A stretch of DNA of 64,000 nt, taken from contig JAFCMP010000061.1 of assembly GCA_017506865.1 (NCBI GenBank), forward strand, positions 302,506 through 366,505. Direction: 5' to 3'. The notes beneath the pieces are model-generated. The model worked only from the letters and a program-made list of their open reading frames with translations. It had not been told where the DNA came from and did no database searches. The translations under genes were made by a program, and so were the position numbers. Shown here one piece after another: positions 281 through 63,985 of this stretch. Every line of letters starts with the position of its first letter. Positions within the stretch are counted from its first letter, which is position 1. The DNA comes from Tribonema minus. Taxonomy: Eukaryota; Sar; Xanthophyceae; Tribonematales; Tribonemataceae.

Positions 281-750
281 TTGAGCGTCGCACTTGTCAT
301 TGCGGCGCGCGGCGTGTGCCCGTTCGCGTCACCACCGCTATGATGCAACCACCATCGCCAGGCAACTGCCATGCGCACGTGGCTGACTGACGCAATCTTC
401 CGCTGCACGCGCCTCTGCCCCCGTGCGTTTTCAGGGTGTGCGTGCGCGACAGCTTTGTGATAGCGCAGCGCGGCGTGTGCTTGTTCATGCAACTGCCACC
501 ATCATGTAACTGCCACTGACTGACGCAATTGCGCTGCGTGTGCCTCCGCCCGTGCGTGTTCAGGGTGCGCGTGCGCAGCAGCTTTGTGATTGCGGAGCGC
601 GGCGTGTGCTCGTTCATGTAACTGCCACCCTCATGCAACTGCCACTGACTGACGCATTTGTCCGCTGTGCGCGCTTCCGCCACCGTGCGTGTGCAGGGTG
701 CGCGTGCGGGGCAGCTTTGTGATTGCAGAGCGTGTGCTCGTTCAGCATGA
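281..750 (+). repeat. Four tandem copies of the PA-exon start with acceptor
   Basis: A unit containing a pyrimidine-poor acceptor (GTGCGTKTTCAG) and an exon start translating as VRVRxSFVIAxRGVCxF appears at about 281-330, 435-489, 564-618 and 697-750. The last copy has lost 4 nt (GAGCGTGTGC instead of GAGCGCGGCGTGTGC). That shifts its frame relative to the downstream exon, and a new AG (727-728) is available to restore it. Confidence 0.7.
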
Positions 751-2029
751 AGACGCTCGCGCTGCAGAAGGCGGGCGCCCTGGGCATGATCCTCAGCAAC
801 AAGCCCACCACGACGCTGCGCATGATAGTGCGTCACACTTGCTGCTGTTGCATTCTGTAACAGCCGACTGTTGAAAAGCGGTGCGCATGATCCTCACCGA
901 CAATTGCCGCCGCAACGCTCCGCATGATGGCACGTCACCTGCCGCTGAGTTGGTGTTGCACATTTGAAACAGTCAGAATTGAGGTAATTGGCTTGATGAA
1001 TACGTGGCAGCGACGTTACGCATGATGGTGCGTCACGCGCTGCTTAGATGTCATGGCTGCTTGTGCCAGTCGACTTGAAGCAGTTGGCATGAACTTCAGC
1101 AATAGATTATTGCCAATCATGCCGCCATGTTGATCATCCTGGGGGCTTACGCTGCTTAGATGTCATGGCTGCTTGTGCCAGTCGACTTGAAGCAGTTGGC
1201 ATGAACTTCAGCAATTGACTATTGCCAATCATGCCGCCATGTTGATCATCCTGGGGCCTTAACCTTCTTTCTCGTGGACATGGCAAGTCACTCAACATCT
1301 CATCCACCTCATCCCAGCTGCACATGGTGGTGCGTGACGTGCTGCAACGACGCTGCTGCGACAGTGCAAGAACCCGCAGTCAGCGGTCCAAGCGTCCGAC
1401 GCCGTGTGTTGAGGATGCTGTGTCACGGTGACAGCGCGTGTCGCTGCCTTCGTCCTGTGCAAGCCAACTTGAAGCATTCTGCATGACCCTCACCAGCAGC
1501 GCCGCCTCGATGCTGCGTATGATGCTGCGTTGGTATATGAGTACGTGATACTTCACGCTCGCGAAGCAACGTCTATTTGGCAACAGATGCCGCGCGCGCG
1601 CACACCCTCAACTGCACAACCCCATGTACCACATTGCGCCGCGCAATCGCAGGCCCCACTGGCAGAGGAGGGAAGGCCAAGCAGATTTGTTGAGCGCTGC
1701 AGAGTCTGAGACCTCCGCCGCATGATGAGGTGTGCTGCTTCGTCAACTCTTCACAGAACCCCCCCCCCCCCCCCCCCTCGAAGCCAAGCAGACTTATTAA
1801 GCGCTGCCGAGCTTGAAACTGCCGCCGCGCGTAATGAGGTCATGCTGCTTCTTCCACTCTTCATGCACGCGCCCCCCGCCCCCCCCTCCCCCCCCCTGCG
1901 TTTCGGTTTTGCAGGCCCCGGAGGAGGAGGCCAAGCAGGCACGCATCCCCAGCGCGATGGCCAGCGCGCCTCGGCGGCGTTGCGCTCGCGCGCTTCTTCA
2001 ACGAGGACTACTACGGCGCGTACGGCTGA
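281..2029 (+). CDS. PA-domain protein, 3' portion (5' end outside window)
   Basis: I see a plausible exon at 729-827 (acceptor AG at 727-728, donor GTGCGT at 828). Its frame reads SVCSFSMKTLALQKAGALG followed by MILSNKP. This resembles the R-G-x-C-x-F...K...A-x-x-AGA-x-G core of protease-associated (PA) domains, which act as lid or interaction modules in proteases, sorting receptors and RING proteins. A second exon at 1915 follows a long pyrimidine tract and starts in the same phase with PEEEAKQARIPSAMAS, like the IP-x-x-M-x-S strand late in PA domains. From about 1973 the coding-looking frame shifts by one and ends LARFFNEDYYGAYG at a TGA (2027-2029). This may be a real indel, a sequencing error or decay. 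Exon pieces are repeated around both exons. The family assignment rests on short motifs, and the gene could be a pseudogene. Confidence 0.4.
780..1530 (+). repeat. Diverged copies of the PA-exon end and a 111-bp tandem duplication
   Basis: The exon end (CTCAGCAACAAG...CTGCGCATGATA, then donor GTGCGTCA) recurs in weakened form at about 884-930, 1008-1036 and 1481-1535, mostly with the donor-like GTGCGT retained. Between them, 1040-1150 and 1151-1258 are a near-identical 111-bp tandem repeat (starting GCTGCTTAGATGTCATGG). Nothing else gene-like is visible in this stretch. Confidence 0.6.
1640..1920 (+). repeat. Copies of the terminal PA-gene exon start
   Basis: The exon start GCCCCGGAGGAGGAGGCCAAG at 1915 has earlier partial copies. 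One at 1651-1686 begins CAG|GCCCCACTGGCAGAGG and contains GGCCAAGCAG. Another at about 1776-1793 follows a C tract and contains GAAGCCAAGCAG. All share CCAAGCAG and a pyrimidine-rich lead-in. The intervening DNA (GAGCGCTGCxGAG, ATGAGGTSATGCTGCTTC) is duplicated as well. Confidence 0.6.
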
Positions 2030-2703: not shown

Positions 2704-4553
2704 CTATGCACACTGAATGTGGATCCGTGGCATGCAGTTGGCGGGTGGCGCCGCGGCGGCGCCTGCAGCGTGGCCGCCGCTGCGGGAGGCAGCGCTCAGC
2801 GCGGCGTAGCTGTCGGCGGAGGCGTTGCCGCCGTCCGCGTTCTCCGACACGGCGGCGGCGGCTGCGGCGGCGGCGGGGCGCGGGCACGCGCGCAGTCCCG
2901 GCTGGTCGGGGTGGCGGCGCAGCACGTACGTGAGCGTAACGCGGTGGCCCGCCTCCACGGGCGCGATCTCGTGGCGGCAGTGGCCGTAGAAGGCCGCCCA
3001 CTGGAGGCGCGGCGCCGCGGCGCGCGTGAGCACGTCGCGGCGGCAGCGGCGGCGCTCCTCCACGTCGCGCGCCGCCGGCGCCAGGCGGTACAGCGGCGCG
3101 TCTCGCGCCGCGTTTGCCGCGTTTGTCTGCGTGATGATGCGGCCCCAGTCGAGCCGCATGGAGGGGACGTCGCTGCCAGGGGCCTTGTTGGTGTCGGGGC
3201 AGGCGGCGGCGGCGGCGGCGGCGGGGCGCATGTTGTTCCAGATGCTGAGCTGGCCGCCGCTGAAGGCGGAGAGTAGGCACACCACCTGCGTGCGACACGC
3301 CCGTGGCGTTGTGATGACTTGTAGGCAGCAAGTGAAGGCAGGTGTAAATTGGGTTCGGTGACGTGCCATGTTCAGTGACGTGCAGCAAGTGAAGGTGGAT
3401 GTAACGTGAGTGCAGTGGCGTTTCACGCTTCGGGGGCTCGAGATCGTGAGCTAGTGTTGGGGAGAATATGAGGGATAAGTAGGTGGAGGGCAGGCGCGCA
3501 GCCTGCCTGCGGCATGGCAATGTTGCACGTATCATCTGCAGCCATTCCAGCAGCGCTCGGCGCTGCGCTACACGGTAGCAAGTACCTACCTGCATGCTTT
3601 ATCATGAAGTTGACTCACCAGCAATTTAGAGGTGGTCAGCTCGTGGCGCGGCATATGTCACAGGTAGCACGCAAAGGCACACTTCAACACGTTGAATTGA
3701 CTCACCAGCGATCCGAAGGCCAGCTCGTCACGCGGCGTGTCGCGGTGGCACGCGCAGAGCACACTGCAAGATGGGTGTAGTTGACGCACTTCAAGATGGT
3801 GAAGGTGACTCACCAGCGATCCGAAGGCCAGCTCGTCGCGCGGCGTGTCGCGGTGGCACAGAGCGCACTTCAAGATGGGTAAAGTTGACACACTTCAAGA
3901 TGACTCACCAGTGATCCGAAGGCCAGCTCGTCGCGCGGCGTGTCGCGGTGGCACGCAAAGAACCCCCCCTCCTCGTACACGTTGACCTTCAGCAGCTCCG
4001 CGGTGATGCCGAGGTGCGCGTCCGGCACGAGCTTTGCGCGCACCGCCTCCAGAATCCCCAGCGCCTCCACGTCCACGCCAGTGCTCAGGATGCGCTCCGG
4101 CGGCACGTGCGCCGCCTTGCGCACGCTGTCGTCGAACACGGTGCGCTGGTTGTGGCCGAAGGGCGACGGGTCGCACGCCGCGAGAAACGCGCTGTACTCC
4201 GCGCTGACGCTCTGGTGCTCGTCGGCGGAGTGCAGCGCCGCAGGCAGGGACAGCGTTAGAGGAGCGTCACCTTTCGCTGCGTCCTTGGGCAGGATCTCCA
4301 GTTTCACGCCGTCGGTGGGCACGGAGCCGGCGCACACATATGCGTCCTCTAGGCGCAGGATGGCATCCGCGATCTTGCCAAGCGTGGCTTTCGTCGTGTC
4401 CTCTGGCTCCTCATCTGAAGCGTCCGCGGCTTCGCCGGCAGCAGCCTCTGGCTGGGGCACAGGTGCAGCCTTCGCCTCGGTGCTCAAGGCAGTGGCGGCG
4501 TTGGCGGAGGCAGAGGACTGTGGCGCAGAGGTAAGCACATGCAGCGCCAACAT
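2704..4553 (-). CDS. 2OG-Fe(II) dioxygenase (prolyl 4-hydroxylase-like fold)
   Basis: Two exons, 4553-3909 and 3285-2704, join in phase 0 (FGSL|VVCLL) to give about 408 residues. The double-stranded beta-helix core is visible: iron ligands H202 and D204 in FFACHRDTPRDE, distal H320 in CRHEIAPV, and the 2-oxoglutarate-binding R330 in GHRVTLTY. WAAFYGHCRHE and LSAFSGGQL are typical of a 2OG oxygenase family common in algae and fungi. The fold predicts oxidation (hydroxylation) of a protein or small-molecule substrate, and the substrate cannot be inferred. The N-terminal ~50 residues are Ala/Glu-rich low complexity and the exact start is uncertain. The C-terminus after the DSBH core is Ala-rich and may be shortened or continue in an unseen exon. 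A transposable element begins only 65 bp upstream of the start, so the promoter may be displaced. Confidence 0.7.
3611..3960 (-). repeat. Ladder of dioxygenase exon-1 3' edge with donor
   Basis: The exon end encoding CHRDTPRDELAFGSL plus its donor (GTGAGTCA) occurs four times on the minus strand: the functional copy at 3960-3904, then about 3870-3809, 3760-3702 and a degenerate one at 3680-3611. All but the last preserve the reading frame of the iron-ligand motif and the GTGAGTCA donor. Spacing is 90-110 bp, with TTGAAGTG-containing filler between copies. Confidence 0.85.
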
Positions 4554-4617
4554 CAGCTATGGATTTAATGGAGGGGAACGCAGGATTGTCAGCGCAGAAG
4601 CAGCGCGACGTTGTCAT

Positions 4618-6636: not shown

Positions 6637-7263
6637 GTGCACTGCGGATACACAATCCCCCAAAACAGTGTTGTAACACACCAACGCATAGTCCGGTAAG
6701 CTCAATCATAGCGACATCACAAAGCGCAGTGGCTTTGCGCGACTGCTCTCGCTGCCACCCCAAACGCCATGGCGCGTTTCCAGCAACATCTCCTGAATGC
6801 CCAAAAAGATATCTGTATCCAGCATCAGGCAAGATCCTGTAGCGCAACATGCGTGATTGCACGTGTTACCACCGCATGAACACCAATCATCAGCATCTCA
6901 TGGATTTGACTCACCCTAAAGGCAGCGCGCCGGCGGTGTGTGTGTGCGTGTGTGTACTTCGCGTTGGCTAAAAAGGAGCGCGCCCAAGTTGACGAGTTCA
7001 AAATTCAAACTTTCAAATCTCCCTCGCCACCATTGTCAAAGCCAGCACAGTCTGAATTGTGTTCGTCACTTGCTGCCATTACAAGGGAATGATCTTCGAC
7101 GGCGGGCGTCACGCTCAACTGCAACCCTAATGCAAGTAGGGCAAGCTATGGTGATCACTTGTCAGACTGCCACCATTGTCAAAGCCAGCACAGTCTGAAT
7201 TGTGTTCGTCACTTGCTGCCATTATAAATCACCGGCGCACTCCCTAGGCTCCAGCGACAGCAC
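6637..7263. repeat. Intergenic stretch with a 57-bp direct repeat
   Basis: A segment starting CCACCATTGTCAAAGCCAGC occurs at about 7027-7084 and again at 7169-7225, nearly identical (ending CTGCCATTACAA versus CTGCCATTATAA). A GT-rich microsatellite lies at about 6936-6954. No coding signal is convincing here. Confidence 0.6.
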
Positions 7264-8748: not shown

Positions 8749-9384
8749 TCAGGCCATGTCCTCGAGCACGAGGCACGGCGACACGGCGGGGATCATGCTG
8801 TCGAGGTACGACAGCACGTCGAGGTTGTCGAGCGCGCCGCTGCCGCCATCGCCAGCGCTGCTGCCGCCGCCGCACACCTCAAGCGAGGGCAGGTCCATGG
8901 CGGCGGTGTCGAGCGCCTGGAAGTCGAAGGAGCGGAAGAGCTCGTCCATTGCGACGTCCTCCGCCTCGCTCTCGAACGACGTGTCCGTCAGGTCGTCGGT
9001 TACGTAACCGCCGTAACTGGCGGCGGCCTTGGCGTCGCTGCCGTTGGCGGCTGCGGTGCTGGCGGTGGCGGCGAAGTCGACGGCGTTGGCCTCGGACTTG
9101 ACGGGAGCGTTGCCGGTTGAAGTTGTCATTGAAGTTGCCGCTGCTGCCTCTGCATCTGCGGCTTCGTCCTCGAAGGCCGAGTCGGATGTGTCGTCTTCCT
9201 CAGAGTCGGAAGCGTCGGCGAGGCAGAACGACACGCGCTTGCCTGCGAGGCGCGAGCTGCGGCGCATCACTCCTGTTGAAGGCGGAGCCTGCGCGGTGAC
9301 GCTCCGGTGCTGCTGAGCGCTGTTGTGCTGGCGGCGGCGCCCCCGCCCGTTTCCCCCCCTTCCCCTATTGCTGCAGGCGCCCAT
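8749..9384 (-). CDS. Acidic, Ser/Ala-rich hypothetical protein
   Basis: About 212 residues from the first in-frame ATG (9384) to TGA (8749). A basic, Arg/Gln-rich start (SNRGRGGNGRGRRRQ) is followed by MRRSSRLAGKRVSF and a strongly acidic region (DASDSEEDDTSDSAFEDEA). The C-terminus alternates acidic and bulky hydrophobic residues (MDELFRSFDFQALDTAAMD, then LDVLSYLDSMI), a pattern typical of transcriptional activation domains. No DNA-binding domain is visible. It lies 3' of the bZIP gene on the same strand but is separated by a bZIP stop codon and an inverted-repeat element, so I treat it as a separate gene. A nuclear regulatory role is inference only. An acceptor-like AG just upstream of the ATG leaves open an additional 5' exon. 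Confidence 0.5.
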   Translation of the reverse strand: MGACSNRGRGGNGRGRRRQHNSAQQHRSVTAQAPPSTGVMRRSSRLAGKRVSFCLADASDSEEDDTSDSAFEDEAADAEAAAATSMTTSTGNAPVKSEANAVDFAATASTAAANGSDAKAAASYGGYVTDDLTDTSFESEAEDVAMDELFRSFDFQALDTAAMDLPSLEVCGGGSSAGDGGSGALDNLDVLSYLDSMIPAVSPCLVLEDMA

Positions 9385-9543
9385 CTCCACTGCTGGGAGA
9401 GAACTCGACGCGTCGCGTGTGGCGAGTACGTATGTATGAAATACGCACTGCGACGTCGTCTATTTAATGGCACGCGCGCACACACACACGTCGTTGCGTG
9501 TTGTGTGTGTGCTGAGGGTATCGAGCACACAGTGCTGTGTCCC

Positions 9544-9662
9544 AGGCTCTCTATATGTACAACGACAGGACGCTTCCGAGCGTCCCCCCCTTCCGTATAC
9601 GGAAGGGGGGGACGCTGGTAAATATTGTGCGTTTGATGTCATCGCGTTAAGAAGAGAGAGCC
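9544..9662. repeat. Inverted-repeat element with a 38-bp perfect palindrome
   Basis: Positions 9579-9597 (AGCGTCCCCCCCTTCCGTA) and 9598-9616 are exact reverse complements with no spacer. Outside them AGGCTCTCT (9544-9552) pairs with AGAGAGCCT near 9654-9662, so the whole resembles a ~119-bp miniature inverted-repeat element. It sits immediately after the bZIP stop codon, which overlaps its right end, and upstream of the acidic-protein gene. Confidence 0.65.
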
Positions 9663-11015
9663 TAGACAGCCTGTGGCTGACCCTGCAGCGCGGCCGCCGG
9701 TGCGGGTGCTGCAAACTCGCGGTTAAAGCAGCCTGCAGGCGTTGTGGAAGGGGGGGTGACGGTGGTGGACCTCGGAGTTGAGGATAATGATGCGGAGGCG
9801 CTGCTGTTCTGCGTCAGCAGAGGCCGGCACTTGAGCGGGAGCGACGAAGTCGGAGGCTGCGTGGGTGAGGAGCGCGTAGCGGACACGGAGCCTTCGTAGG
9901 TCTCGAGGCGCTGGCGGAGAGCGGCGTTCTCCGCTTTGAGAGCGTCAACCTCGACCTGAGCAAGGACGAACACGAGGCGGGTATAGATAATGAGTTGTGT
10001 GCTGCGATGCTTGCACGGAGTGGTGATATGCCTAGCAACAGGCTGGCTCTGGCAGATAGTTGCCTTGACCTAAACGGGGGCAACAAGGCAAGCACGACAA
10101 GGCAAGCACTGCCACCACGCAAGCGCTGCGGCGCTGAGCTACATGCACGCGCAAGCCTGTAGGTAGTAACGAGCTGACAGAGCAGATGTGACACACACGA
10201 CGAGCGCTCGCGCTGGGATGAGTTGCACAGGGTCAACAGCACGAAGATACTCTGCTGAAGATAACCATCTCGTCCCAGATCACATCCCAATTGGTTTGAC
10301 AGAAACAGGTGGGTGTCAGTGACAGACAATCAAATGTGTAGACACTAAACACACACCTGAAGTCTCTCGGTCTCCTCTCGCTTGCGCTTGCGGGACAGGG
10401 CGGCGGACTCCCTGTTACGCAGCATTCTCTCGCGCCGCTGGGCCTCCTTCTTGGGATCAGAAAGAGCGTTGGTGCCGTCCTCCTCGTCGTTGTCAGATGA
10501 TGTCGACTCTGTGCGGGTGCTGGCGCTCGGCCGCTTGGCGGGGCGACCCTTTTTGCGCTCGCTGTCCAGCTTGACAAGAGGGGGCTGCAGGATAGATACA
10601 AGATAAGGATCGAGGTGGAACACGAGATGGTGAGTGGTGTTCAGCCGGCAGACTGTCAGAAACAACATGGCAATGCAGCAGAAAAGAGCCTGAAGATCAA
10701 CCTGAGCGAGCATCTTGCGGGCAGACAGAGCAGAACGCGCGTGAAGTTGAACCTAGGGTCGAAACACATCAAGCACCAGAGGATGAGCCTAAAAACACCT
10801 CACGCAGCTTTTTTTTCCTCAGTATTGATGAATCAACGGCACAGCGACTCTGGTTCCGGAGCACCAGCACCAGCGCGGAGGCGTACCTTGGCGGTGGTAG
10901 GTGTCTGCCGCAGGTTCGCCAGCGCAATCTTCCGCTGCTTTCTGGCCTCAGCAGCAGCGCTGGCTGCCGGCGTGGGGTCAGAGATGGATGCTAAGGGTGC
11001 CTCTGAGGCTGCCAT
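9662..11015 (-). CDS. bZIP transcription factor
   Basis: Three exons, 11015-10887, 10584-10357 and 9955-9662, all phase 0, encode about 216 residues. The N-terminal 43 residues are Ala-rich with a short basic stretch (EARKQRKIALANLR). Residues 54-62 read KKGRPAKRP, an AT-hook-like motif, followed by a Ser/Asp-rich linker. The basic region (about 90-113) is RRERMLRNRESAALSRKRK, with the diagnostic N-x7-R spacing at N100 and R108. A leucine-zipper heptad series follows across the exon 2/3 junction (ETERLQVEVDALKAENAAL then RQRLETY). The C-terminus is Ser/Thr/Pro-rich, as in transactivation domains. It should bind DNA as a dimer in the nucleus; subfamily and targets are unknown. The start is the first in-frame ATG, and an in-frame extension upstream exists without ATG. 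The gene is divergent from the glutathione peroxidase gene. Confidence 0.85.
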
Positions 11016-11354
11016 GGTGCCTCCGCTGCTGCTAGGAGCTTGGATACTCTTTGTAGCCGCTGTCACCACTCGCTCCGCCACGTGTTGATCGACCACGACC
11101 AAGAGTGTAAAATGCGCGTGGAGGTTATGCTTTGCGTGGCGGAATGCGAGAGAGCGACAGCGGCTGCCTACTGGTGGCTGGCAGAGTGTTGATTTCTTCC
11201 CTTGGCTGAGAACCTAGCCTGTAAAGTAGTGAATTCTTAAAGTTTTTTGAAGCGTTTGTCCGCGCACTGTTCCCAGAAAGGGGGAGGTGAAGCTGGCCTG
11301 AAGGTGACACTCCTACTTCAAGTAAACCTCGGGGACGTCGTTGAGAGCCTAACG
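11016..11354. promoter_or_regulatory. Divergent promoter region between bZIP and glutathione peroxidase genes
   Basis: The two start codons, 11015 (-) and 11355 (+), are only 339 bp apart, so both 5' UTRs and core promoters must share this segment unless unseen upstream exons exist. I find no clear TATA box. The AT-rich centre (about 11219-11250, with a GAATTC and a TTTTTT run) is the most AT-rich part. Confidence 0.5.
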
Positions 11355-14300: not shown

Positions 14301-14761
14301 CCAAGTGTTGCGTTTGTGCAATGCAGCTCAACACAATGCTATATACCGTTTGACATTGTTGCAATGATTTCCTTGCATGCGGCTTCTTGCATGTGGCTGG
14401 TGCAATTACCGCACTGCTCTTTGAAGCTGTCAAATCTTGACAGCAACTGCTGTGGTTCGCAAACACCACAAATCACAACGAATGAGGGGCACTTGCAGTA
14501 TCTGCGCAATTGGCCGTCATCTTTTTCATGGCATATTGATGTACTTGCCTTTCATGGCATGTAGACAAACAATGGCATTGCACCTCTACACAAGGCAACA
14601 GTGTCAGAGGGCATGCGCGCACCAAAAGCCGGCACTGCAGGATGTGGTGCCACTCCAAGGCGTAATCCATTTGCGACATAGAACTGCCCATGCTTTTCTT
14701 TGGTGCTACTTGATTCCATGCAGCTATACATCTACAAGGAGAGTCTGGAATGCATACTTGC

Positions 14762-14792
<31 letters not shown>

Positions 14793-49534: not shown

Positions 49535-49567
<33 letters not shown>

Positions 49568-53400: not shown

Positions 53401-56400
53401 TAATAAGAAGTACACTGCATCAAAGTATGTACCTGATCTAGTGTAGTACATGTCAGCATGCACTCTCGTTGATCCTACATCTCTTCCTGTGGTCGTGTAG
53501 GGTTGAGCACTACCATAAACGCAAAAGCATGGATACTGCTGCAGACGGTGGTTTGAGCATGGGTTAGGGTTAGGATTAGGGAATAGGGTTAGGGTTAGGC
53601 ATGCGGGGCAGGTCCTTGCCCCATTGCTTGTCCCAGCCAGACAACTCAGACGGATCGACTCTGTTGCTGTGCCATGCCTCATACTTCGCAGCAGGCGCAC
53701 GCTCTAACCCTAACCCTAACCCTCAATGTGTACGCCGCTCATGGAACTCTCGCCTCGTGGCCCGGCCGTTTAGCACCAGCGCTTAACCCTGACCCCAACT
53801 TTTTCAGAGTGCAGAGTAGGGTTAGGTCATCTGTGCATCCGCGGTAGCGACGCTTGGGTGCAGACAAGGGCAGATAGCTCTAGTGCATTTGCATACCCAC
53901 CTATGGGTAAGCATGTATCATTTGCATTAATCATATGCATGAATATGCATGAATCACATGCATGAATCACGCATCGCTACACACACATTACATTTCGAAT
54001 GAATGCGGAGACCCACGGGCGTGCAGTTGCTGCTCACGCATTCACAGCGACCCCTTCCCCCCTTTGCGCGCATGCTCGTCAGATCGGGAAGACGATAAAG
54101 AAGCTGAAACGCGGCGGCAGCACGGGCAAGGCGCGCCGCGCGCCAGACCCGGAGGTGTCACGCATGGTAGACGAAATCATCATGGTGAGGCTCACTCCAT
54201 GTCTATGACGCTGAATACCTAGACTATGCTTTTGACTTTGTTTGTTATAGCGTGTGTGATTGTATGTATGCGCGTTATGATTCCATGTACATATGCGCGT
54301 ATAATCTTGGAGTATGCGAACCAGAGGTGGCGCGCATAGTGGAATCATCATGGTGAGTGAACGTACACCCTTTTTAAACAGATCTAGCGTGCTTACTCCT
54401 GGTGTGAGAGTGGCGGGTGCGTCCGTGTGGTCATATGGCTGTATGCTGTATATATACATTCAATGTATGCACATACACTCTGAGGTATGTATAGCAGACC
54501 ACGCATGGTAGACGAAATCATCTTGGTGAGACTCTCTCCATGACTGTGACTGAATACTTAGACTATGCTTGTGACTGTTGTTGTTATAGTCTGTATGAAT
54601 TGCAAGTATGCGCATATACCCTGTAGCATGTAATGCACAACAGGAGCTGGCACGCATGATAGATGAAATCACCATGGTGAGTGAACCTACACCACGGATG
54701 TGGACGATGGCCTATCGTGCTCATTTTTGGTGTGAACCTGGCGGGTGTGTGCGCGTGGTCTTTGGCTGTACAACTTTGAATTATATGTAGCAGACCCAGA
54801 GGTGACATGCATGGTGGACGATATCATCATTGTGATGCTCATTACGGTAAGGCTTACACCCCCCCTCGCCCTGGTAACTTAGACTTTACTGTGCATCCCT
54901 CTGTGCAAACTGCGCCAGGCGTATACGTTTTAAGTTCATATTTGGCCAATGTTGAAGTCTACGGTCAGCAGTGACGCTCCCCCTGTACAATGTGCAATCC
55001 CTCCGTGCACACTGCGCCAGGCATGGAAGACGACGCTGCACTTGATGAGTCAATGTTGAAGTTTATGGTTGACGGTGACGCTCCCCCTGATGAAGACGCT
55101 GCACGTGGTGACTCGATGTTGAAGTTCATGGTTGACGGGTGACGCTTCCCCTCTGTGCACACCGCAGGCGTGGACGAAGACGCTGGAGGCTCAGCGCGAG
55201 GAGCGCGCGCGCATGGTACAGAGGTGCGTAGGTAGGTGGTATACACACTTGAAGGGGTAGGATAGGGTATGCACACTGCGCAAGGTGCTTAAGTAGTTGT
55301 ATCAACAACAAGTGGGATAGGGTATGCACACTGCACAAGGTGCTTTTAAGAGTAGTTGTATCAATAACCAGGGGGGAATTTGGGGCGCGCATGGGGCAGA
55401 TGTGCATGGGTAGGTATACACATACATGATCAGCAGGAAAGGCTCATGGTGCAGAAGCGCATGGGTAAAGTACTAGTAGTACAGTACTTCTAGATAACCA
55501 CGGGGGAAGCTGGGGTATGCATGCATGCCGCAGTGGCGCGTATGCAGGTACAGTGTGGGCACATTTTTTACCACGGGCCGAGCAGACATTGCTCTCGCAA
55601 TGTTGACATCTTTGCAGCTCATATACGTGCACCCTGTGCATACAATTACAATGCAAACAGTTGTCGAGGTTGGAGTTGAAGCATCTTTGGGCTGGTGTCG
55701 TAGAACCGCAAAGGCAATTGCAATAGGTGGCTGCGCCTACAGAGAGGGGTACATAGATACTGCAGTGCGGCTTCTGCAGGCCTACAAGGTACTTTGTGTG
55801 GGTAAGGCCAAGTAACAAGGCGCTTGCGGCTTGCGGGGAGTGGGGCACAACTGTCAGCAACTATACTTGTGGATATGTCATTTTAAGTGCCGAGCATTGC
55901 TGTCAAATTTTGAGCACTGCTGCTTGTGTGCGCGCAGTTGCTGCGGGTGGTCCCATCAGGGGGGTGAGGAAAGGGGATGGTGCACATCGATTTACAATAC
56001 ACTGTGAAAATTCAATATATCATGTAATGCTGATCGATGCTCTGTATGTTGAGCACTGCTGCTTGTGTGCGCACAGCCGCCGTGGCTGGTCCCTGCAGGG
56101 GGATGAGGATGGGGAATGGCGCAGGGGGTCCCTCGGCTGGAAGGAGGAGATTCGGCTGGGGTACAGCGTCAGCGATAAGGTGACCTAACCTCAACTGCAA
56201 GTAGGGGGTCATGTAGAAACTCTGAGTCCGTTGTCTGTTTCGCCAAGCGCCAGCGCGCCTCACCGCCCCTATACCTACCTACCTAGATGGAGGACGGCAG
56301 ATGGCTTGCCATTCCGTGCGCTTGTGGTGTGCCTCTATGCAGCGCCTCTGCCAATTGTTCCACATCGGCCATTGACCAATGATTCAAAACCAATGCTGCT

Positions 56401-59400
56401 GTGCCGTAGGACCTGTGCTGCCACTAAGCCAGTCCCCCGAACGTTCTTGTGTGTGCGCAGGGCGGGGATACCAGTGGCAGCGAGGCTGGTGGCGGGGACT
56501 ACATGAACAGGCACCTCAGCGACACAATGTCATCCGCTGGTGAGTCACCTCCGCCATGTGCGATAACTTCAACAGCTGCCTGCCTCCCGTGCGCGGGCCA
56601 CCGTATGTCGAGCATGCGAGCACTGCGGCCACGACGATCTCAAAGGCCGCAGCCCTGGGGCACGTTCACTATTTGATATTGAAGTGCATGTCTGTAACTG
56701 TCTGTAACTGCCGTAACTGCCCGCAGGCGAGCAGTGGCACCGCGGCTACGACAACCCTGAAGGCTGCAGCAACTCTGGGGGCACGTCCACTACTTGACGT
56801 TGGCGTGCATGTGCGTAACTGTCTGTAACTGCCGTAACTGCCCGCAGGCGAGCAGTGGCACTGCGGCCAAAACAATAATATCGGTCGGAGCCCTGGGGCC
56901 ATGTAAAGTTTCCACAAACTTTTTTACTGTCTGTAACTGCCGTAACTGCGCGCAGGCGAGCAGTGGCACCGCGGCCACAACGTCCTGGACGACTGCATGT
57001 TTGTAACTGTTTGCAACTGCCGTAACTGCCCGCAGGCGAGCAGTGGCATCGCGGCCACGACGTCCTGGACGAGCTGCTCACAGGCAGCGGCTACAAGGCC
57101 GTCGACGAGACGGACGAGTGCGGCCGACCATCGGGCATGGCGCCGCCGTTCTTACACGTTGGAGATGCGCTAGCAGACAGGTGACAGCAGCGTGGACAGG
57201 GCACCATCACAATTAGGGTTAAGGGCGAACAATTAGGGTTGCCGCAAGGCTGAAAACGCCGGACTTCTGACGTGCCTGGCCCCGATCCTCACCCTGACCC
57301 TCATATGCTTACCTACACTCAGGGTTAAGGCTAGGGGCCATGAGTGAGGGCTAGAGTCAGGGCTACACGTTAAGGTCAGGGCTAGTTAAGCGCACAACGA
57401 GGGCTGGGATGGAGAATGACAGAGCGCTGCATTTTGCACGTCAGTGGCGAGCTAGCAGACACAAATGCGCATCAGTGCACGTTGCCCAACCCTGAGGCCA
57501 GGACTCAAGACGCTTGAGTGCTTTGTGTAGCGCTGACACGAGGAATGGTTTACAGCAAGAGCAGTGTTCCCTCTGTTTTTAAAAGTACCCGCTATTTACA
57601 GGGAAGTTTTGACAGGTAGCGGCCTTCGCTCGACCTACGGTACGTTCGGGTGACAGTCTGTACTAGGGAGGGATCGAGCTGCTGTTCCGCGCTGCGATTG
57701 ATGCTTTCGAAGACGCGTATGTGCCACTGCTCAGCAGGAGTCTGCAGCCACTCAACTCATGCAAGGGGCAGACTTCAAATTCAAACATCTACAGTGGGAT
57801 CCCATCAAGGCTTCAGATAGGGAAGGGTAGGTGTAAATGAGCGAAGGTACGTGACGGAAAACTGCTCTCACAAAATGCGTGCCACGAATAACGCAGAGAG
57901 CGAACTGCTTTCTTTTTCACTTGAACTTAGTACGTCACGAGCAGCAGTGCTCGGCGACGCGCCACTGCAACCGCAACTGCAGCGCCCCTCAACTGCAGTG
58001 CCACTATGTATGCGTCGCGCCGTGCGCAGCAGTCTGGGCCGCTGCTGGTGACCCTAACCCTCATTGTAGTGTGCTCCCTCACTCCATGACATGACCGCAG
58101 TGTCTCGCGTGCGGCATGCCACTTTAACTCTAACCCTATGTGGCCTGGCCCCAGCCCAACCCTAGCCCCAATCCTGGTATGCCCAAACAAGTTATGCCTA
58201 ATCCTACTTCAACAAGTACATGCCCGACCCCTCGCATGCTTTTCCTGTCACTGCAGCGTCTAGCCCTAACCCTAACTCTAGTACACATACGCCTACCTCT
58301 AACTCTTGCCCTACCCCGCGCATCGCGCGCCGCATAGGGATGGGTCTGCGAGCATCTTAACCCTAGTTTTTGTGCATCCCCTCTCTCACCAACATGAAGG
58401 CGACCCCCGTGCGGCCTGCCTGACCCCGCCTCTACCGCTCTGCCTAGCTCTTGCATTCCCAACCCTACCCCTCGATCTATGCCTAATCCTTCAAGAAGTA
58501 TGTGCCTATCCCGAATTCTAGCCCTAACCCTACACCTCACCCCAACCCTATCTACGCGTGTCGTGCAGGGATGGTTCTGCGAGCGCTAGCAGCAGCATGA
58601 CAGGCGCTGTTACGGCCGATACGGCGAGCTCTCTTGGCACACTGGACATGGGCAGCGACTCGTCGCGCCACCGACGCCGATGTAAGCTTCGCCAACACCG
58701 TAGTCATGTGCAATCACAACCACTTTGCTGCATAGAAGTATATGTTTGATCTTTGTTGCAATGTAGAGAGCTGCTGCTCACTAGCCTGTGTCTCCACACC
58801 GCTAGAGGTAGACATCAAGGTGAGCAATGCAACAGAGGACTGACGCCAGGCGTGTGCTGCTAGATGTGAATGAATGTTTTGTGGTCCGTGTATTAGCAAG
58901 TGTAACTGCCGTAATCGTCAAGTGTGCAAACGGCAATGAGCTTGTCACTACCATATGGCCCATCGTTGTAGTCTTCGCTCTGGACAGTCGCCCCACAGCA
59001 CAGCGCGCCTGCACTCGTGTTGCCATCAACGGGCACGTTAACATTACAGTGCGCCACCGCAGCAGCGTCGCTGATGATCGCGTTGACTTCAACCTCAACC
59101 GCAACTGTGAAACTGCCGCCAAAAACCCTCATTTTCCGCCACCTCTGGCCCTGACTTCAACTTGAACTTCAACTGCAGCGCCGGCGCGGCGCGGCCAGTA
59201 CAGCGACGACGACCGCATGGACGGAGATGACAGCGGCAGCGCAGCAGCAGCGGCGGCGGCGGCGGCGTGGGACCGCGGCAGCGGCGCGCTGGGCGGCTTT
59301 GCAAGCCCACTGGCGATGCTGCCGCGGCAGCGGCGCGGCGCGCTCGGGCGCGGCGTGCTGTGGGGCAGCGGCAGCAGTGGCGGCAGCAGCGGCGGTGAGG

Positions 59401-62400
59401 GCGCGTGGCTGCTGAGTTGTAGTGTGTGCACGCGCGCGCGTGTGTGTGTGTATTGTGGTAGGGTTAGGGCTAGGGTTAGGTGTGTGTGGGCGCGATGTGG
59501 GGCAGCGGCAGCAGCGGTGGCAGCAGCGGCGGTGAGCGCGCGCAGCTGCGTTGTACTAGTGCATGTATGATTAGGGTTAGTGTTGTGGGGGGGGGGGTGC
59601 GCGCGCCTGTGTGTGTGTGTGTGTGTGTGTTGTGGTAGGGTTAGGGGAGGGGTAGGACTTGGTTAGGAGTAGTGTGTGTGCATGTGTGTGTGTGTGTGTT
59701 TGTTGCCTGAACTGCATTACGGGGTTAGGGTTCGTGCACACACTATGTGATCAATATGGCGACTGCGGACCGCAGCGCAGTCCACCACATCACTAATAAT
59801 GAATACTTGAAGTACAAAAGTTATACTCTAAACTTGCAGTATATTTATCTTGGTGGCGGCCGCCAATCTCTCTCAGGCGGCGGCAGCGGCGGCAGCAGCT
59901 GGGGCGACCAGCAGTTCTTTAACATTGATCACACCATCATCGATGATGAATAACGGAGTCATATACGACTCCGTTATTATAGCAAGCTGCCAATCTCTTG
60001 CAGGCGGCGGCAGCGGCGACGGCGGCAGCTGGGGCGGCAGCAGCGCTCTCATGCAAATAGTGAATCCAGAAGTTATACTTCAAACTTGAAGTGTACATGT
60101 CATTGTGGCGACTGCCAACCTCTTTCAGGCGACGGCAGCAGCGGCGGCAGCTGGGGCGGGCAGCAGCACTTTTACACCAGTAACACCATAGCCAGTGCCT
60201 GAACTGCACACACCATGGGATCATGAACGCGACTGCCGACCGCAGCGCAGTCCATCACATCATCAATGATGAATATAGAAGCTATCTGACATGTCAATAT
60301 GGCGATTGCCAATCTCTTTCAGGCGGCGGCAGCGGCGGCTGCAGCTGGGGCGGCCAGCAGCGCTCGCACGCCCTCACTGCAGGCGGCCTGGCGAGCCTCG
60401 GCGGTGGCGGCAGCGCAAGCGCAAGCGCTGCCAGCAGCGTGGACTCCGCCAACAGCAGCGCGGCCGGCGGCGGCGGCAGCAGCGGTGGCAGCGGCGGCAG
60501 CACGCTGGGCGTCCTGTCGCTGCTGCGCAGCCACCTTGAGGTGCGCGCGGGGCGCGGCGCACTGTATACTTCACGTTTGAACTTGAGCCTCTGTGGTGGT
60601 GCAATACTGTACAGTCTGTACTGGAAGTGCATGGTTTTGGCCCTCAAAAGCGACGTGCCTGAGTTTTTTTTCTTTCGCGTGCATCTTTGCGCGTGCATCT
60701 TTGTTAGTGCTTGCGTGAGCGAGCAGCAGCAGCGGCGGAGCCTGCAACAGCCGTTTGCGAATTCAAGTTGCAGTTGGCCAACCTGCTCTGCGGGGGGGTT
60801 GCACACTAGAGCAGCTGCCTACCCTGCCCCTACTGACCCTCTCCTGTTGTGGTGCTTGAGGCAGTGCTGTTGGCGGGGATGAAGGGGCAGTTTCTGGTCA
60901 ACTTCCTCAACGTTCATTTCTCTACGTGTTGCGATCGAACCCCTGGCCTTGCAGCACCACAAGCAACGCTTTCACGACGGTCTTGTGCCCCCTGCTTTGA
61001 AAAAAAGCAGGTTTGGCAGAGTTCTAAAAGGGTAGGGTCAGCTTAGGGTGACAACACTGGCATTTCGCGACCACAGGGATCCCTGATCCCTGCATGTGTG
61101 TGCGCTGCCACAACTCACGGCGGGGGAATGGGCAGCGGCGCCTGTGCCACTTGAACCCTAGTAGCTGCTTATTTTCAACTCATGAATACAATATGGCCTG
61201 CACATGGCGGTGGCGGCGGCTTCGGCGACGGCGGCGCGCCCTCCCCGCCGAGGAATCAAATGGCTGCTTCAACTTCAACTTACAGTTGACATTCTGTTCC
61301 GCCGCCTCGCTCGCTCATTGCACACGCGCACCGCCTCCGCTTTTCATACAGGGTGACAGCACAGGCGGCGGCGGCGGCGGCTCCGGCGCGCCCCCCCCTG
61401 AGTACCCCCCCAATCACCCAACATTAAACCTCATCAACTTCAACATGAACTTGAACACGAACATCAACTGACGCTCCGCGGCATCTCCCTGCACCCCAAC
61501 CCAATGCCGCCGCGCCGTAGGGCGGCAGCACGGGCGGCGATGGCGGCTCCGGCGCGCCGTCCCCTGCAGCACAACTCAACTTGATGTTTACTCCACTCGG
61601 TCTATTCACATGCGCGCCGCCTCCGCTACCACGCAGGGAGGCAGCATGGGCGGCGGCGGCGGCGGCTCTGGCACGTCACCTCCCAATCACCCAACATTGA
61701 ACATCATCAACTTCAACATGAACTTGAACATGAATATCAACTGACGCTCCGCCGCCATCTGCCTGCACCCCAACGCCACCGCCGCCGCTGCGACGCAGGG
61801 CGGCAGCACGGGCGGCGGCGGCGGCGGCTCCGGCGCGCCCTCCCCCGCGGAGGACTCCGGCAGCGCCGCCGGCGACGACATGGATGCGGAGACGGAGGCG
61901 GGCAGCGTAGCGGGGAGCGTCGCCGGCAGCGTCGCGAGCCGCGACAGCGAGTACCAGTACACGCTGCCGCTGCCGCCGTCGCCGCTGGCGCGCGCACGGC
62001 GCGCGGGCGCAGGGCTGGGGGGGCGCGGGGTGGGGGGAGGTGGGGGGGAGGGGGGGTGGGGGTCGCTGCGGCCGCCGCGGGGGAGAGGGGGGGAGGACGA
62101 TTCCAGCTTTGGGGAGGGGAGCGCGGGAAGGTGAGGGGCTAGGTTAGGGGTGAGGGGTAGGGTTACTAGGGTTAGGCTTAGGGTTAGTGTTAGCGCTAGG
62201 GCTAGGGGTTGGGGTTACTATCAAGGTTAAGGTTAGGGTTTAGGATTAGGGTTAGGGTTAGGTTTAGACGTTGAGGAGGGGGTTCTAACCCTAACCCTAA
62301 CTCTAGGTTGCTGAGAGCAGATGTGCGTGCAGACCCTTCTGCCAGACCAGCGCTGCAGCTGAATGAGTGCACATGATCCGCAGGCAGTGCTGGATAGCCT

Positions 62401-63985
62401 GGGCACTGCCATGCACTGGGTAGAATTAGGGTTAGGGAAGCTAACCCTATTGCAGAGCTCGCTCGGAGGCAAGCGTGCAGCGGCAGCATTACGCGGCCGA
62501 CTTCAGCTTTGTGCAGAGGCAGCGCGCAGATCATGCAGTCCAAATGTGGCTGGACACTCTGCTGCAACGAAAGAGTTCGGTGCGTGTTGGTGTACGCTGC
62601 TGTCCTGTTGACGCTGAGCGCTGCTTTGAGGTTCTAGGTTAGCTTCAGGTTACACTTTTTTGCATGCAGGTAATAAGGGTTAGGGTGAGGGTTAGAGTGA
62701 GGGTTAGGGTTAGGGTTAGAAGCTGTTCGCAGTCTTGCTGGGCAATGCTGAGGATGCAGCGGTGCACGCGCTACTCAAAACGCTTTGGAACGCTTCGTGC
62801 GCTGTTAGGGTTAGGGTTTGGCCTGTTCCCTGTTTGCATCCGCCGCGCTTCGCCGGCGCAGCGGCGATCCGTCACAGGTGGCACACATGTATGCTGTTGT
62901 ATCATGAGTATACACACTGTCACATGTATGTTATTTCATAAAGTATACTTGAGGTATATATAATATGCGTGCTGTTATGTCAATTACATGCATGTGCTGA
63001 TGTATATACTGCCATTGTCGCCGTCACAGCGGCGGCAGCGACGCGAGCCAAAGGTTTTCGCAACCTTATTTACGTCGACGTGCATATGCTGGCACGTCAG
63101 ATTACCTCACAATGTGCTGACACATCTATACATCGTGTCCTCCGCTACCGTGCACTCTCTCCGGCGCAGCGGCGGCAGCGACGCGAGCCGCAGCTCGCGC
63201 GACTGTGTATACCTCGACGTGCATACGCTGATGCGTAAAGTACATCACATGTGCTAATATATCTATAAACTCATATCCTCTTCTTCTGTTCATTCTCTCC
63301 TGCGCAGCATACTATACGCCGTATCCTTCGCTACACTTGCTGCAACAGCGGCGACCACGGTTATTGGTGGAAGGCACTTGCGGCTAACCATCCCTTGTCA
63401 CCTAGAGCTCTACGATCTTTTGATTCGTTTTCACTAATTAATCTCTCCTGCGCAGCGGCGGCATGGACGCGAGCATACCTTGATGTGTGCTGGTGCGTCA
63501 AAGTATATCACATGCGCTGACACATCCACACATGTACTCCTGTATCCTGTGCTCCATAAACTCTCTGCGGCGAAGCGGCGGCAGCGACGCGAGCCGCAGC
63601 TTGCGCAACTGGATATACCGCGACGTGCATCAAAGTATATCATATGTGCTGATACATCTACATATTGCATTCTCTACTGCCATACACTCTTCTGGCGCAG
63701 CGGCGGCAGCGACGCGAGCCGCAGCTCCCTTAAGGCCAAGGTGGGCCCCCCGCGCTCCCCCCGCTTCTCCCCCTACGCCCCCCCCGACCACTACGGCACG
63801 GGGTGGGACTCCAGCGGCAGCACCAGCTCTGCGGGGCCCCTGCCTACCATCGAGAGCTTTAGTTCGGCGCTGGACAGGAGCATGCGGGTGGGGGCGCGGC
63901 GGGGGGGGGGACGGTGAAGAGGGTGACGTGGGCGGACAGGGGGGGGGGGGTGCTGCGCCAGATACGCCTGTTCACGTCCGTGGAG
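50428..63985 (+). CDS. PNUTS/PPP1R10-like PP1 regulatory protein (3' end beyond window)
   Basis: Exons 50428-50541, 51545-51715, 52823-52918, 54083-54184, 55168-55223, 56077-56179, 56461-56539, 57036-57180, 58569-58681, 59179-59394, 60323-60540, 61799-62130, 63701-63985. All junctions agree in phase. A basic start (RKRKRARN) leads to a TFIIS N-terminal/LW domain (~39-180): VEKRALFLCVLRATTEPSCL, ARFVEAGGLQVLRLWIKDAA, VKDLPVTEEAV, IGKTIKKLKRG. This order closely follows PNUTS. Then come acidic, Ser-rich and Gly-rich regions. The last exon encodes TVKRVTWADRGGG followed by VLRQIRLFTSVE, an RVxF-type docking motif like that of PNUTS, which directs PP1 to RNA polymerase II and chromatin. That frame is offset by one base across G10 at 63901-63910; one extra G would restore it. 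Otherwise TGA at 63915 ends the protein. Confidence 0.68.
51390..51640 (+). repeat. Copy of PNUTS-like exon-2 start
   Basis: CTGACGCCCACCATGGTAGA ... CTACCGCTGATGGTCAAAGT at about 51402-51472 is a diverged copy of exon 2 start (CTGGCGCCCAATATGGTGGA...CTGCCGCTGATGGTCAAAGC, from 51551). Confidence 0.8.
52375..52880 (+). repeat. Ladder of PNUTS-like exon-3 start
   Basis: The true exon start GACGCTGCGGATAATGGCCG (52823, after GTGCTGCAG) has copies at 52552 (GATGCTGCGGACAATGGCCG) and 52729 (GGTGCTGCGGATAACGGTCG), each with an acceptor. The preceding intron block (GGTCACGGCAGT, CTTGTTGAAGTACTTGTGTC) is repeated three to four times from 52375. Confidence 0.85.
52919..53100 (+). repeat. Telomere-like (CCCTAA) intron start, duplicated
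   Basis: Immediately after the exon-3 donor GTGCGC the intron runs TAACCCTAACCCTGCACCCT and continues with degenerate CCCTAA units. At 53013-53100 the exon end (TGACTGAGGAGGCAGTGCGG...GAG|GTGTG) and its following CCTA-rich tract are repeated. Confidence 0.75.
53150..53405. mobile_element. MITE-like element with ~50-bp terminal inverted repeats
   Basis: The left end (TATTATTTCTCGCTCAGGGC then GCGAAAAAGCTCAG, to about 53199) and the complement of the right end (TATTAATTCTCGCTCAGGGC then GCGAAAAAGCCCAG, 53405 back to ~53357) are inverted repeats enclosing ~150 bp with no ORF. AAGTAC occurs just outside each end. About 70 bp at the right end (53335-53405) are identical to 6440-6509 inside the element at 4618-6636. 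Confidence 0.75.
53561..53725. repeat. Interstitial telomere-like arrays in both orientations
   Basis: GGGTTAGGGTTAGGATTAGG and further TTAGGG units at 53561-53599, and CCCTAA x3 at 53704-53723 in the opposite orientation, inside PNUTS-like intron 3. Confidence 0.8.
54130..54850 (+). repeat. Ladder of PNUTS-like exon-4 end
   Basis: The exon end (ACGCATGGTAGACGAAATCA TCATG|GTGAGG) is followed by copies at about 54330-54358, 54502-54531 (ACGCATGGTAGACGAAATCA, donor GTGAGA), 54648-54680 (ACGCATGATAGATGAAATCA, donor GTGAGT) and 54805-54850. Intron filler (TGACTGAATACYTAGACTATGC) is duplicated too. Confidence 0.88.
54940..55545 (+). repeat. Ladders at PNUTS-like exon 5
   Basis: Upstream copies of the intron end and exon start (TGACGCTCCCCCTGTACAAT, GTGCACACTGCGCCAGGCRT) occur at about 54971-55040 and 55075-55130. 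Downstream copies of the exon end (GCGCATGGTACAGAGGTGCG) occur at about 55388-55412, 55443-55466 and 55519-55545. Confidence 0.75.
55915..56180 (+). repeat. Duplicate of PNUTS-like exon-6 start
   Basis: TTGAGCACTGCTGCTTGTGT GCGCGCAG|TTGCTGCGGGTGGTCC at 55909-55952 copies the true acceptor region (56050-56076) and exon start (CCGCCGTGGCTGGTCC). The upstream copy also keeps a GGGGGTGAGG stretch that could act as a donor. Confidence 0.8.
56690..57060 (+). repeat. Four-step ladder of PNUTS-like exon-8 start
   Basis: GTAACTGCCCGCAG|GCGAGCAGTGGCAYCGCGGC occurs at exon-start positions 56728, 56849, 56957 and 57036 (the last opens into the exon). Acceptors are identical except one GCGCAG. Units of 121, 108 and 79 bp each include a stretch of exon-derived sequence. 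Confidence 0.9.
58150..58575 (+). repeat. CCCTAA-rich intron end and copy of PNUTS-like exon-9 start
   Basis: GCGCGCCGCATAGGGATGGG TCTGCGAGCAT at about 58325-58356 copies the exon-9 start (GTGCAG|GGATGGTTCTGCGAGCG, 58569). Surrounding sequence is degenerate CCCTAAC repeats from about 58065 to 58555. Confidence 0.75.
58763..58960 (+). repeat. Dispersed intronic repeat, copy 3 (PNUTS-like intron 9)
   Basis: Begins TAGAGAGCTGCTGCTCACTA, includes GAGGTAGACATCAAGGTGAG and GTAATCGTCAAGTGTGCAAA. It is collinear with 30511-30710. Confidence 0.65.
59380..60365 (+). repeat. Ladders between PNUTS-like exons 10 and 11
   Basis: The exon-10 end GGCAGCGGCAGCAGTGGCGG...GGCG|GTGAG is copied at 59500-59536. 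The exon-11 start (CTCTTTCAG|GCGGCGGCAGCGGCGG, 60323) is preceded by copies at about 59876, 60002 and 60127, all with (T)CTC(T)YAG-type acceptors. GACCGCAGCGCAGTCCAYCA filler is at 59768 and 60238. Each copy would encode a Gly/Ser-Trp-Gly piece (GGSSWGDQQ, GGSWGGSS, GGSWGGQQ). Confidence 0.88.
59949..59978. repeat. Perfect 12-bp stem hairpin
   Basis: AATAACGGAGTC (59949-59960), loop ATATAC, then GACTCCGTTATT (59967-59978). It sits in an intron between two exon-11 ladder copies. Confidence 0.7.
61340..61850 (+). repeat. Ladder of PNUTS-like exon-12 start
   Basis: CAG|GGNGGCAGCAYGGGCGGCGG-type starts lie at about 61351, 61523, 61637 and 61799 (functional). ATCAACTTCAACATGAACTT filler is repeated between them (61431, 61705). 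Each copy ends in a short GSGAPxP-like piece. Confidence 0.85.
62131..62725 (+). repeat. TTAGGG-rich intron start after PNUTS-like exon 12
   Basis: From the donor GTGAGG onward the intron consists of degenerate TTAGGG units (62140-62270), with CCCTAA units at 62285-62303, and further TTAGGG arrays at 62422-62450 and 62677-62721. The change of orientation within the tract forms potential fold-back structure. Confidence 0.8.
62990..63735 (+). repeat. Ladder of PNUTS-like exon-13 start
   Basis: The functional start (GCGCAG|CGGCGGCAGCGACGCGAGCC, 63701) is preceded by copies at about 63027, 63168, 63458 and 63577, plus stripped-down ones near 62855 and 63306. GAYGTGCATMWRCTGRYRCR filler is also repeated. 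The copy at 63577 has AAG in place of CAG at the acceptor. Confidence 0.88.

Follow-up and report, generated by a model that had tools for sequence, protein, structure and literature searches.

Introduction

Among natural insertions in rice, tandem duplications are the most frequent class; they are enriched at 50-200 bp, and their share is down to 5% by 200 bp (PMC7971508). In mammalian cells, breaks with 3' overhangs lead to small tandem duplications via CST-Pol alpha-primase, by fill-in and end joining (PMC8355091). Patch-mediated duplication was described by Vaughn and Bennetzen (2014, as cited in PMC7971508), and intron gain through tandem duplication is covered in a review (PMC3443670). 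Here, we describe a 64,000-nucleotide stretch of the genome of Tribonema minus (contig C61, positions 302506-366505, which we will call the window), in which many introns contain copies of the edge of the adjacent exon, including its splice site. We will call a series of such copies a ladder and each copy a rung. Ladders are probably the fossil traces of intron growth, in which small tandem duplications of the break-repair type occurred again and again.

Like patch-mediated duplications, the rungs are direct head-to-tail units of tens to ~200 bp, they do not involve a transposon, and they are mostly tolerated outside of exons. However, patch-mediated duplications are single events, either polymorphic or induced, while edges here have up to 5 rungs each, and ladders are either regionally dense or nearly absent. 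In a potato RdRp gene, an intron was gained when a stretch that spans an intron-exon border was duplicated in tandem (a single case; PMC4974935). There, as here, the duplicated stretch crosses the border between an intron and the next exon, with the acceptor, the polypyrimidine tract, and the start of the exon. But the duplication in potato made a new intron, while in our case existing introns lengthen (intron positions are kept in the gene for ribosomal protein eL15, as discussed below) and the rungs decay inside them. In Daphnia, repeated staggered breaks give direct repeats and passive intron growth, and internal repeats were significant in 55 of 90 new introns (PMC4202315). The ladders share both features. 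The exon-intron repeats reported in Daphnia, however, are of 4-12 bp and are tied to new introns, while the pieces of exon edge that are copied here measure about 15-130 bp. The stwintrons of Lipomyces also involve duplicated donor sites, which are attributed to break repair, but these duplications are of 4-7 nt and they yield nested functional introns (PMC7138796).

We found no description of systematic exon-edge ladders in the open-licence literature, although our coverage was partial and this is weak evidence of absence. Nothing on such copies was seen in PMC5966456 either. Introners are another case in which the introns of a single genome contain numerous units of similar length, and their sequence is common to different genes. 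Ladders are like introners in the length and number of the units, but as far as we searched, they are not shared between genes. The process of duplication has known precedents. What is unusual about the ladders is how dense they are, that they are restricted to certain regions, and that they occur in core housekeeping genes.

Distribution of the ladders

We predicted exons in the window and in four other stretches of 50 kb each from this assembly (158.18 Mb in 554 contigs), on contigs C25, C1 (100-150 kb), C10, and C40. The five stretches total 264 kb, or 0.17% of the assembly. The gene models are from a small home-made two-strand gene finder that was trained on these five stretches. We considered an exon to be real if at least 45 bp of the predicted exon lay outside of local repeats, which keeps rungs from being counted as exons. 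The models are predictions without RNA support, and some false exons and some missed exons are certain.

Among introns between exons with a unique body, 23 of the 57 in the window had at least one laddered edge, as did 13 of 27 in C25. The other three stretches had one laddered intron among 98 (0/31 in C1, 1/58 in C10, and 0/9 in C40). Donor edges were copied in the adjacent intron at 14/57 edges in the window, 6/27 in C25, 0/33 in C1, 1/58 in C10, and 0/10 in C40; for acceptor edges, the corresponding numbers were 11/58, 9/30, 0/32, 0/60, and 0/10. Across the two rich stretches, nearly one quarter of edges were laddered (40/172), and the rates for donors (20/84) and acceptors (20/88) were equal. 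The original prediction, which was made from the window alone, held that most introns or nearly every intron had such copies. This is incorrect, and within the window it is also contradicted by the bZIP and glutathione peroxidase genes (8.7-16.6 kb), which have no laddered edges. Laddered introns had a median length of 791 bp, versus 491 bp for other introns, in the window, and of 1,076 versus 948 bp in C25.

Local direct repeats gave a similar picture. They make up ~23% of the bases in the window and 26% in C25, versus 1.8-3.9% in C1, C10, and C40. Ladders extend across the window from about 294 to 63727, on both strands, and the bins from 5 to 15 kb have 4% repeat coverage. For 2.5-kb samples taken at base 30001 of selected contigs, repeat coverage was above 15% in 2 of 12; this rose to 3 of 4 for 2.5-kb samples inside kinesin genes. 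Contig C1 has both states, with a ladder near 1.94 Mb and a ladder-free stretch at 100-150 kb. Ladders are confined to some regions of the genome.

Other parts of the original prediction were borne out. Copies are found on both strands and in several genes of the window. If they are aligned on the splice site, then upstream copies comprise the AG and the start of the exon, and downstream copies comprise the end of the exon and the GT. Their divergence is graded, with aligned pieces that are 67-100% identical.

Rungs as head-to-tail duplications

Within 1 kb, local repeat pairs were almost always direct instead of inverted (97 versus 2 in the window and 115 versus 2 in C25). To describe the copies themselves, we used a second, separate search of the 40 laddered edges from these two stretches. 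It recovered 1-5 copies at 34 of the edges, for a total of 68 copies, and none at the remaining 6 edges. Neighbouring copies were predicted to repeat at 80-200 bp, and indeed 61 of 68 spacings were within 80-220 bp; none were in 220-260 bp, and 7 were longer. Periods are shorter, at 60-81 bp, in some of the repeat clusters. The exonic and intronic similarity between neighbouring copies comprises a median of 0.92 of the spacing (the range is from 0.15 to more than 4, the highest values arising where additional rungs adjoin). Furthermore, at least 15 bp of intron flank is common to 60 of 68 neighbouring pairs, while the median for unrelated splice sites is 5 bp. The coverage of the spacing and the common flank imply that most of the units arose by head-to-tail duplication across the border. 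Both this arrangement and the lengths of the units fit with break-repair duplication, for which units are expected to be of 50-200 bp and seldom to exceed about 200 bp. Identity declines with distance (rho = -0.25, p = 0.036).

We propose that a double-strand break or a pair of nicks is followed by fill-in and end joining, which would repeat ~80-220 bp head to tail. In this way, an exon edge would enter the intron along with its splice site and some of the intron flank. Because many introns are only a few units long, the unit would often straddle the exon border, and short ancestral introns would also push units across it. The outer, original site presumably still yields the normal mRNA, so duplications that cross the border would survive, while those that alter the exon would be purged. 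The inner copies would then decay neutrally. Recurrent small tandem duplication explains most of the pattern, and intron growth by local duplication, which was the first explanation to be suggested for the window, is well supported.

Comparisons by codon position show that the copies do decay neutrally. Between the real exon and a copy, the differences at codon positions 1, 2, and 3 were 8.3%, 8.0%, and 14.7% (p = 1.5e-7). Between copies, they were 14.7%, 13.3%, and 16.1% (p = 0.29; pairs from the same ladder are not independent). Since the third-position excess is seen only if one partner is the real exon, the exon is constrained and the copies are not. Also, a copy branch of ~8% doubles to ~15% between copies, which matches neutrality. 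Tandem or mutually exclusive exons would be duplicated whole and would show coding constraint. Instead, the copies are partial, with aligned exonic extents of 15-129 bp in exons of at least 102 bp, and they are neutral.

Ladders in MCM and eL15 genes

In genes for conserved proteins, homology distinguishes the real exon from the copy. Because the ladders in MCM and eL15 genes rest on conserved protein sequence, they are independent of the gene finder. Pfam matches to MCM fall into six genes by our grouping, and four of these have an extra partial match that adjoins an exon. We examined these four at the DNA level. On C146, the start of an exon, with what we take to be the Walker B motif, has an upstream copy (104 bp, 89% identity, at a distance of 106). 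On C445, the end of an exon is copied downstream together with GTATG (88 bp, 89% identity, distance 180). On C1, an exon end that presumably carries the Walker A motif has a downstream copy with GTGCG (102 bp, 87% identity, distance 162). The gene on C156 has one upstream copy, along with part of a second at the end of the stretch that we examined.

There are two paralogues of eL15, at C7:197669-201192 and C23:452726-454363. The stretch of C7 includes three testable edges, with exon 1 and most of intron 1 lying outside of it, and all three are laddered: there are three upstream copies of the start of exon 2, two downstream copies of its end, and two upstream copies of the start of exon 3. The paralogue on C23 had no local repeat. 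In two compared exons, the proteins are identical at 76 of 78 and 71 of 75 residues; in exon 2, 20 of 76 codons differ, and every difference is synonymous. Both intron positions are common to the two genes. As estimated from the coordinates of the Pfam matches, the introns are about 2,265 and 677 bp in the laddered gene and 500 and 544 bp in the ladder-free gene. In intron 2 of the laddered gene (rc(L026), about 2040-2410), long C runs lie directly before the acceptor copies, which makes for an unusual polypyrimidine tract.

A gene on C334 (in L052), which we take to be metallophosphatase-like, is also laddered. A piece of plastid rbcL is found on the same contig (L052, about 1513-1700, minus reading) and appears to be intronic, inside this gene. 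Another rbcL piece in this nuclear assembly is on C112 (L053). The piece on C334 is of the red type: the best chains in PDB score about 96 bits, versus 54.8 bits for chain 1gk8, which we take to be from Chlamydomonas. This speaks against a green alga and suggests that the host probably has a red-derived plastid, as do haptophytes and similar algae.

Are exon edges hot spots for duplication?

An alternative explanation is that a mutational process is aimed at exon-intron junctions, for example due to R-loop breaks, nucleosome borders, or co-transcriptional splicing, so that edges are true hot spots. We consider this to be unlikely, but the edges do have more repeats than expected by chance. We placed repeat clusters at random on the same gene models, refusing placements with both copies in exons, in 400 sets. 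(We placed 43 clusters from the window and 41 from C25, and excluded 3 and 2 clusters as unacceptable.) In the window, 25 clusters spanned an edge, versus 11.6 at random (standard deviation 2.8; maximum of 21 across the 400 sets). In C25, 14 clusters spanned an edge, versus 7.1 at random (standard deviation 2.1; maximum of 15). So the proposed concentration of copies at exon edges is real in the sense that edges have about twice as many clusters as random placement gives. But a pair of exon and intron copies diverges mainly on one branch, while two intron copies diverge on both, so the former should be detectable for about twice as long. This asymmetry in detection predicts a roughly two-fold excess without any preference for edges. 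If we double the odds by hand, then ~30 edge-spanning clusters are expected and 39 were observed. This is rough arithmetic, and a small true excess is possible. The same detection bias applies to the repeat pairs with at least 88% identity over at least 50 bp, of which 8 of 18 span an edge.

The fact that every testable edge of eL15 on C7 is laddered also fits a junction-directed process, as does the better preservation of the exonic parts of copies relative to their intron flanks. On the other hand, no polarity of transcription or of splicing predicts the equal rates for donors and acceptors. There are also duplications without a predicted exon edge, at 16993-17734, 7026-7227, and 1038-1269. 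The first of these is a tandem repeat of 330 bp, at 97% identity, and a stop-free frame of 278 codons runs through it on the minus strand. It is a young duplication and is distant from every predicted exon edge. A mutational process linked to splicing, as the original prediction raised, is not required.

Besides the edge excess and what remains of it after the correction, the intron flanks of the copies weigh against a simple history of tandem duplication and decay. Between the real edge and a copy, the median identity was 0.87 for the exonic part and 0.65 for the intronic flank, versus 0.51 for unrelated flanks. Between copies, the medians were 0.83 and 0.61. The flank was at least 65% identical in just 35 of 68 real-copy pairs and 25 of 61 copy-copy pairs. 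Even in those 25 copy-copy pairs, the substitution rate was lower in the exonic part than in the flank (0.127 versus 0.177, p = 0.013), and gap columns numbered 5 versus 39. Copies were found via their exonic part, which biases these comparisons. Repeat-rich flanks acquire indels faster, which may be another part of the dissimilarity. A near-identical exonic part next to an unrelated flank was seen in 5 of 129 pairs. The best candidate for gene conversion, or for copying of little beyond the edge, is the +315 copy of the end of the SANT exon, at 37499-37586, which is 98.9% identical over 88 bp and has unrelated sequence on both sides. It could reflect gene conversion or a templated insertion. 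The regional heterogeneity, which our explanation does not account for, is another point against it.

Copying of little beyond the exon edge, or gene conversion from the exon to the copy, would give the same pattern in the flanks. It is conceivable, but we think improbable, that junctions are true hot spots within one compartment of the genome, perhaps marked by TTAGGG, that edges convert with their copies, and that introns archive their borders.

The motif TTAGGG is indeed unevenly distributed. Interstitial arrays lie within the window (Table 1) and also within C25. Among the matches listed, contigs C2 and C3 each have long arrays close to where they begin, which suggests that TTAGGG is the telomere motif of this genome. 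The motif occurs 68 times in the window and 86 times in C25, versus 28.7 and 23.8 expected, and 0 of these 68 + 86 occurrences are inside predicted real exons. The observed and expected counts in the three ladder-poor stretches are 19 versus 24.0, 10 versus 20.4, and 9 versus 24.3. We rejected the telomere motif as the cause of the ladders, as within the two rich stretches these are not clearly nearer to arrays (0.166 versus 0.233 and 0.356 versus 0.272, with standard deviations of 0.07-0.08). A tight link is also broken by the 2.5-kb samples: 4 of 16, without repeats, have 4-6 motifs, and one with 33% repeat coverage has none.

Other explanations

Selection might keep the copies as redundant or decoy splice sites, or as alternative exons, but this seems very unlikely. 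As predicted, many copies retain the splice dinucleotide: GT is kept in 28 of 34 donor copies and AG in 28 of 34 acceptor copies. This is in line with neutral decay, as we calculate that a divergence of 8-10% per base would leave 81-85% of GT or AG intact. By splice-site score, 53% of donor copies and 71% of acceptor copies exceed the 10th percentile for real edges with ladders. The donor copies also outscore predicted ladder-free donors (medians of 5.38 versus 4.88, where the latter include false exons). Nevertheless, donor copies score below real laddered donors (5.38 versus 6.55, p = 0.0035). For acceptors, the difference was not significant (3.92 versus 4.22, p = 0.074). The copies were also predicted to keep the reading frame. 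The aligned part of 53 of 68 copies does lack any frame-breaking indel, but this is as expected for young neutral copies, and the distances to the copies showed no significant frame preference (20/17/31, p = 0.09). Along with the lack of codon-position bias between copies, these results argue against selection for redundant or decoy sites.

If the rungs were introners or other transposed or retro-copied units, then they would be expected at many unrelated loci. Their similar lengths fit this idea, but the ladders look private to each gene, and among the 115 pairs of direct repeats in the window, a distance of more than 1.5 kb separates 18. When one laddered stretch of 687 bases was compared to the assembly, the best-scoring candidates were the stretch itself, two rungs from its own ladder, and one paralogue. 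Also, the intron flank that is common to 60 of 68 neighbouring pairs implies that the rungs are not cDNA copies. We consider this explanation to be highly improbable.

Errors in the assembly or wrong exon calls are equally improbable as the source of the ladders: the exon calls are indeed predictions by a home-made gene finder, with no support from RNA, but identities are graded from about 67 to 100%, ladders occur on several contigs, and those in MCM and eL15 rest on protein conservation. A mixture of two species, as might be imagined from the bimodal density of ladders and the two copies of eL15, was rejected on the basis of the grouping of the MCM matches into six genes, the single location of all S3Ae matches, and the two states of contig C1. 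Tetranucleotide composition gave no clean split of the contigs.

Features of the window

The window is 58.6% GC and eukaryotic, with intron-rich genes. A Pfam search with eight queries from the window identified glutathione peroxidase, bZIP, two Myb/SANT domains, and one helical-bundle domain of TFIIS, while three queries matched nothing. The first Myb/SANT match, at 23.0 bits, is slightly below Pfam's cut-off of 24.4. The exon joins at 37017 (in this SANT match) and at 54184 (in TFIIS-N) fall within Pfam matches. In the donor ladder with five copies, a later duplication of ~300 bp repeats two of the rungs. The predicted exon at ~746-827 presumably resembles a PA domain.

A 42-bp repeat around GTACTCGTAC is found at 4680-4830 and at 6514-6606, on either side of a gene-like frame at 4970-6406. 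The part of this frame that we searched (5469-6089) had no match in Pfam. There is also a long C run in an intron, at 14763-14792.

Table 1. Ladders, single copies, and contrasting features in the window
Feature	Position	Strand	Edge	Details
Acceptor-side ladder	294..744	+	before predicted exon ~746-827	period about 130
Donor-side repeat	781..938	+	end of predicted exon ~746-827	period 101
Donor ladder	3605..3956	-	exon 3909-4553	2 copies of exon end + GTGAGT; exonic part 96-98% identical
Contrast, no laddered edge	8749..16563			bZIP gene 8749-11015 (-); glutathione peroxidase gene 11914-16563 (+)
Donor copy	21788..22041	+	exon end 21835	distance 144
Acceptor copy	27053..27403	+	exon start 27383	
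Acceptor ladder	30726..31120	+	exon start 31082	2 copies, both without AG
Donor copy	31204..31392	+	exon end 31244	
Donor ladder	33291..33928	+	exon end about 33377	4 copies (+112, +227, +334, +546)
Donor copy	34703..34949	+	exon end 34765	GT changed to GC
Acceptor copy	35114..35334	+	exon start 35285	
Donor ladder	35434..36008	+	exon end 35498	3 copies recovered in second search
Acceptor ladder	36490..37053	+	SANT-domain exon start 37017	2 copies recovered in second search
Donor ladder	37184..37847	+	SANT exon end 37268	3 copies
Donor ladder	38330..38970	+	exon end 38436	2 copies
Donor copy	41682..41882	+	exon end 41739	distance 97
Donor ladder	43984..44872	+	exon end 44112	5 copies, GT in all; nested
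Donor copy	46813..47221	+	exon end 46873	
Acceptor copy	51394..51605	+	exon start 51545	TFIIS-N/Med26 gene
Donor ladder	54144..54841	+	exon end 54184	3 copies, GT in all; TFIIS-N gene
Acceptor ladder	56620..57077	+	exon start 57036	3 copies, AG in all
Acceptor ladder	59735..60371	+	exon start 60323	3 copies, AG in all
Acceptor ladder	61212..61857	+	exon start 61807	4 copies, AG in 3
Acceptor ladder	63018..63727	+	exon start 63701	2 copies recovered in second search
Interstitial TTAGGG arrays	33793-33817, 34198-34221, 37758-37820, 52928-52969, 53564-53594, 62167-62267, 62676-62719			

Implications

How introns grow, and how splicing tolerates duplicate sites nearby, are old questions with few clear cases. 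This genome offers dozens of natural, complete duplications of splice sites with their exonic flanks, which can be ranked by divergence, and these include core genes such as MCM and eL15. Laddered genes sit beside ladder-free genes and regions in one genome. With RNA reads, each rung could serve as a test of which site is chosen among several near-identical splice sites.

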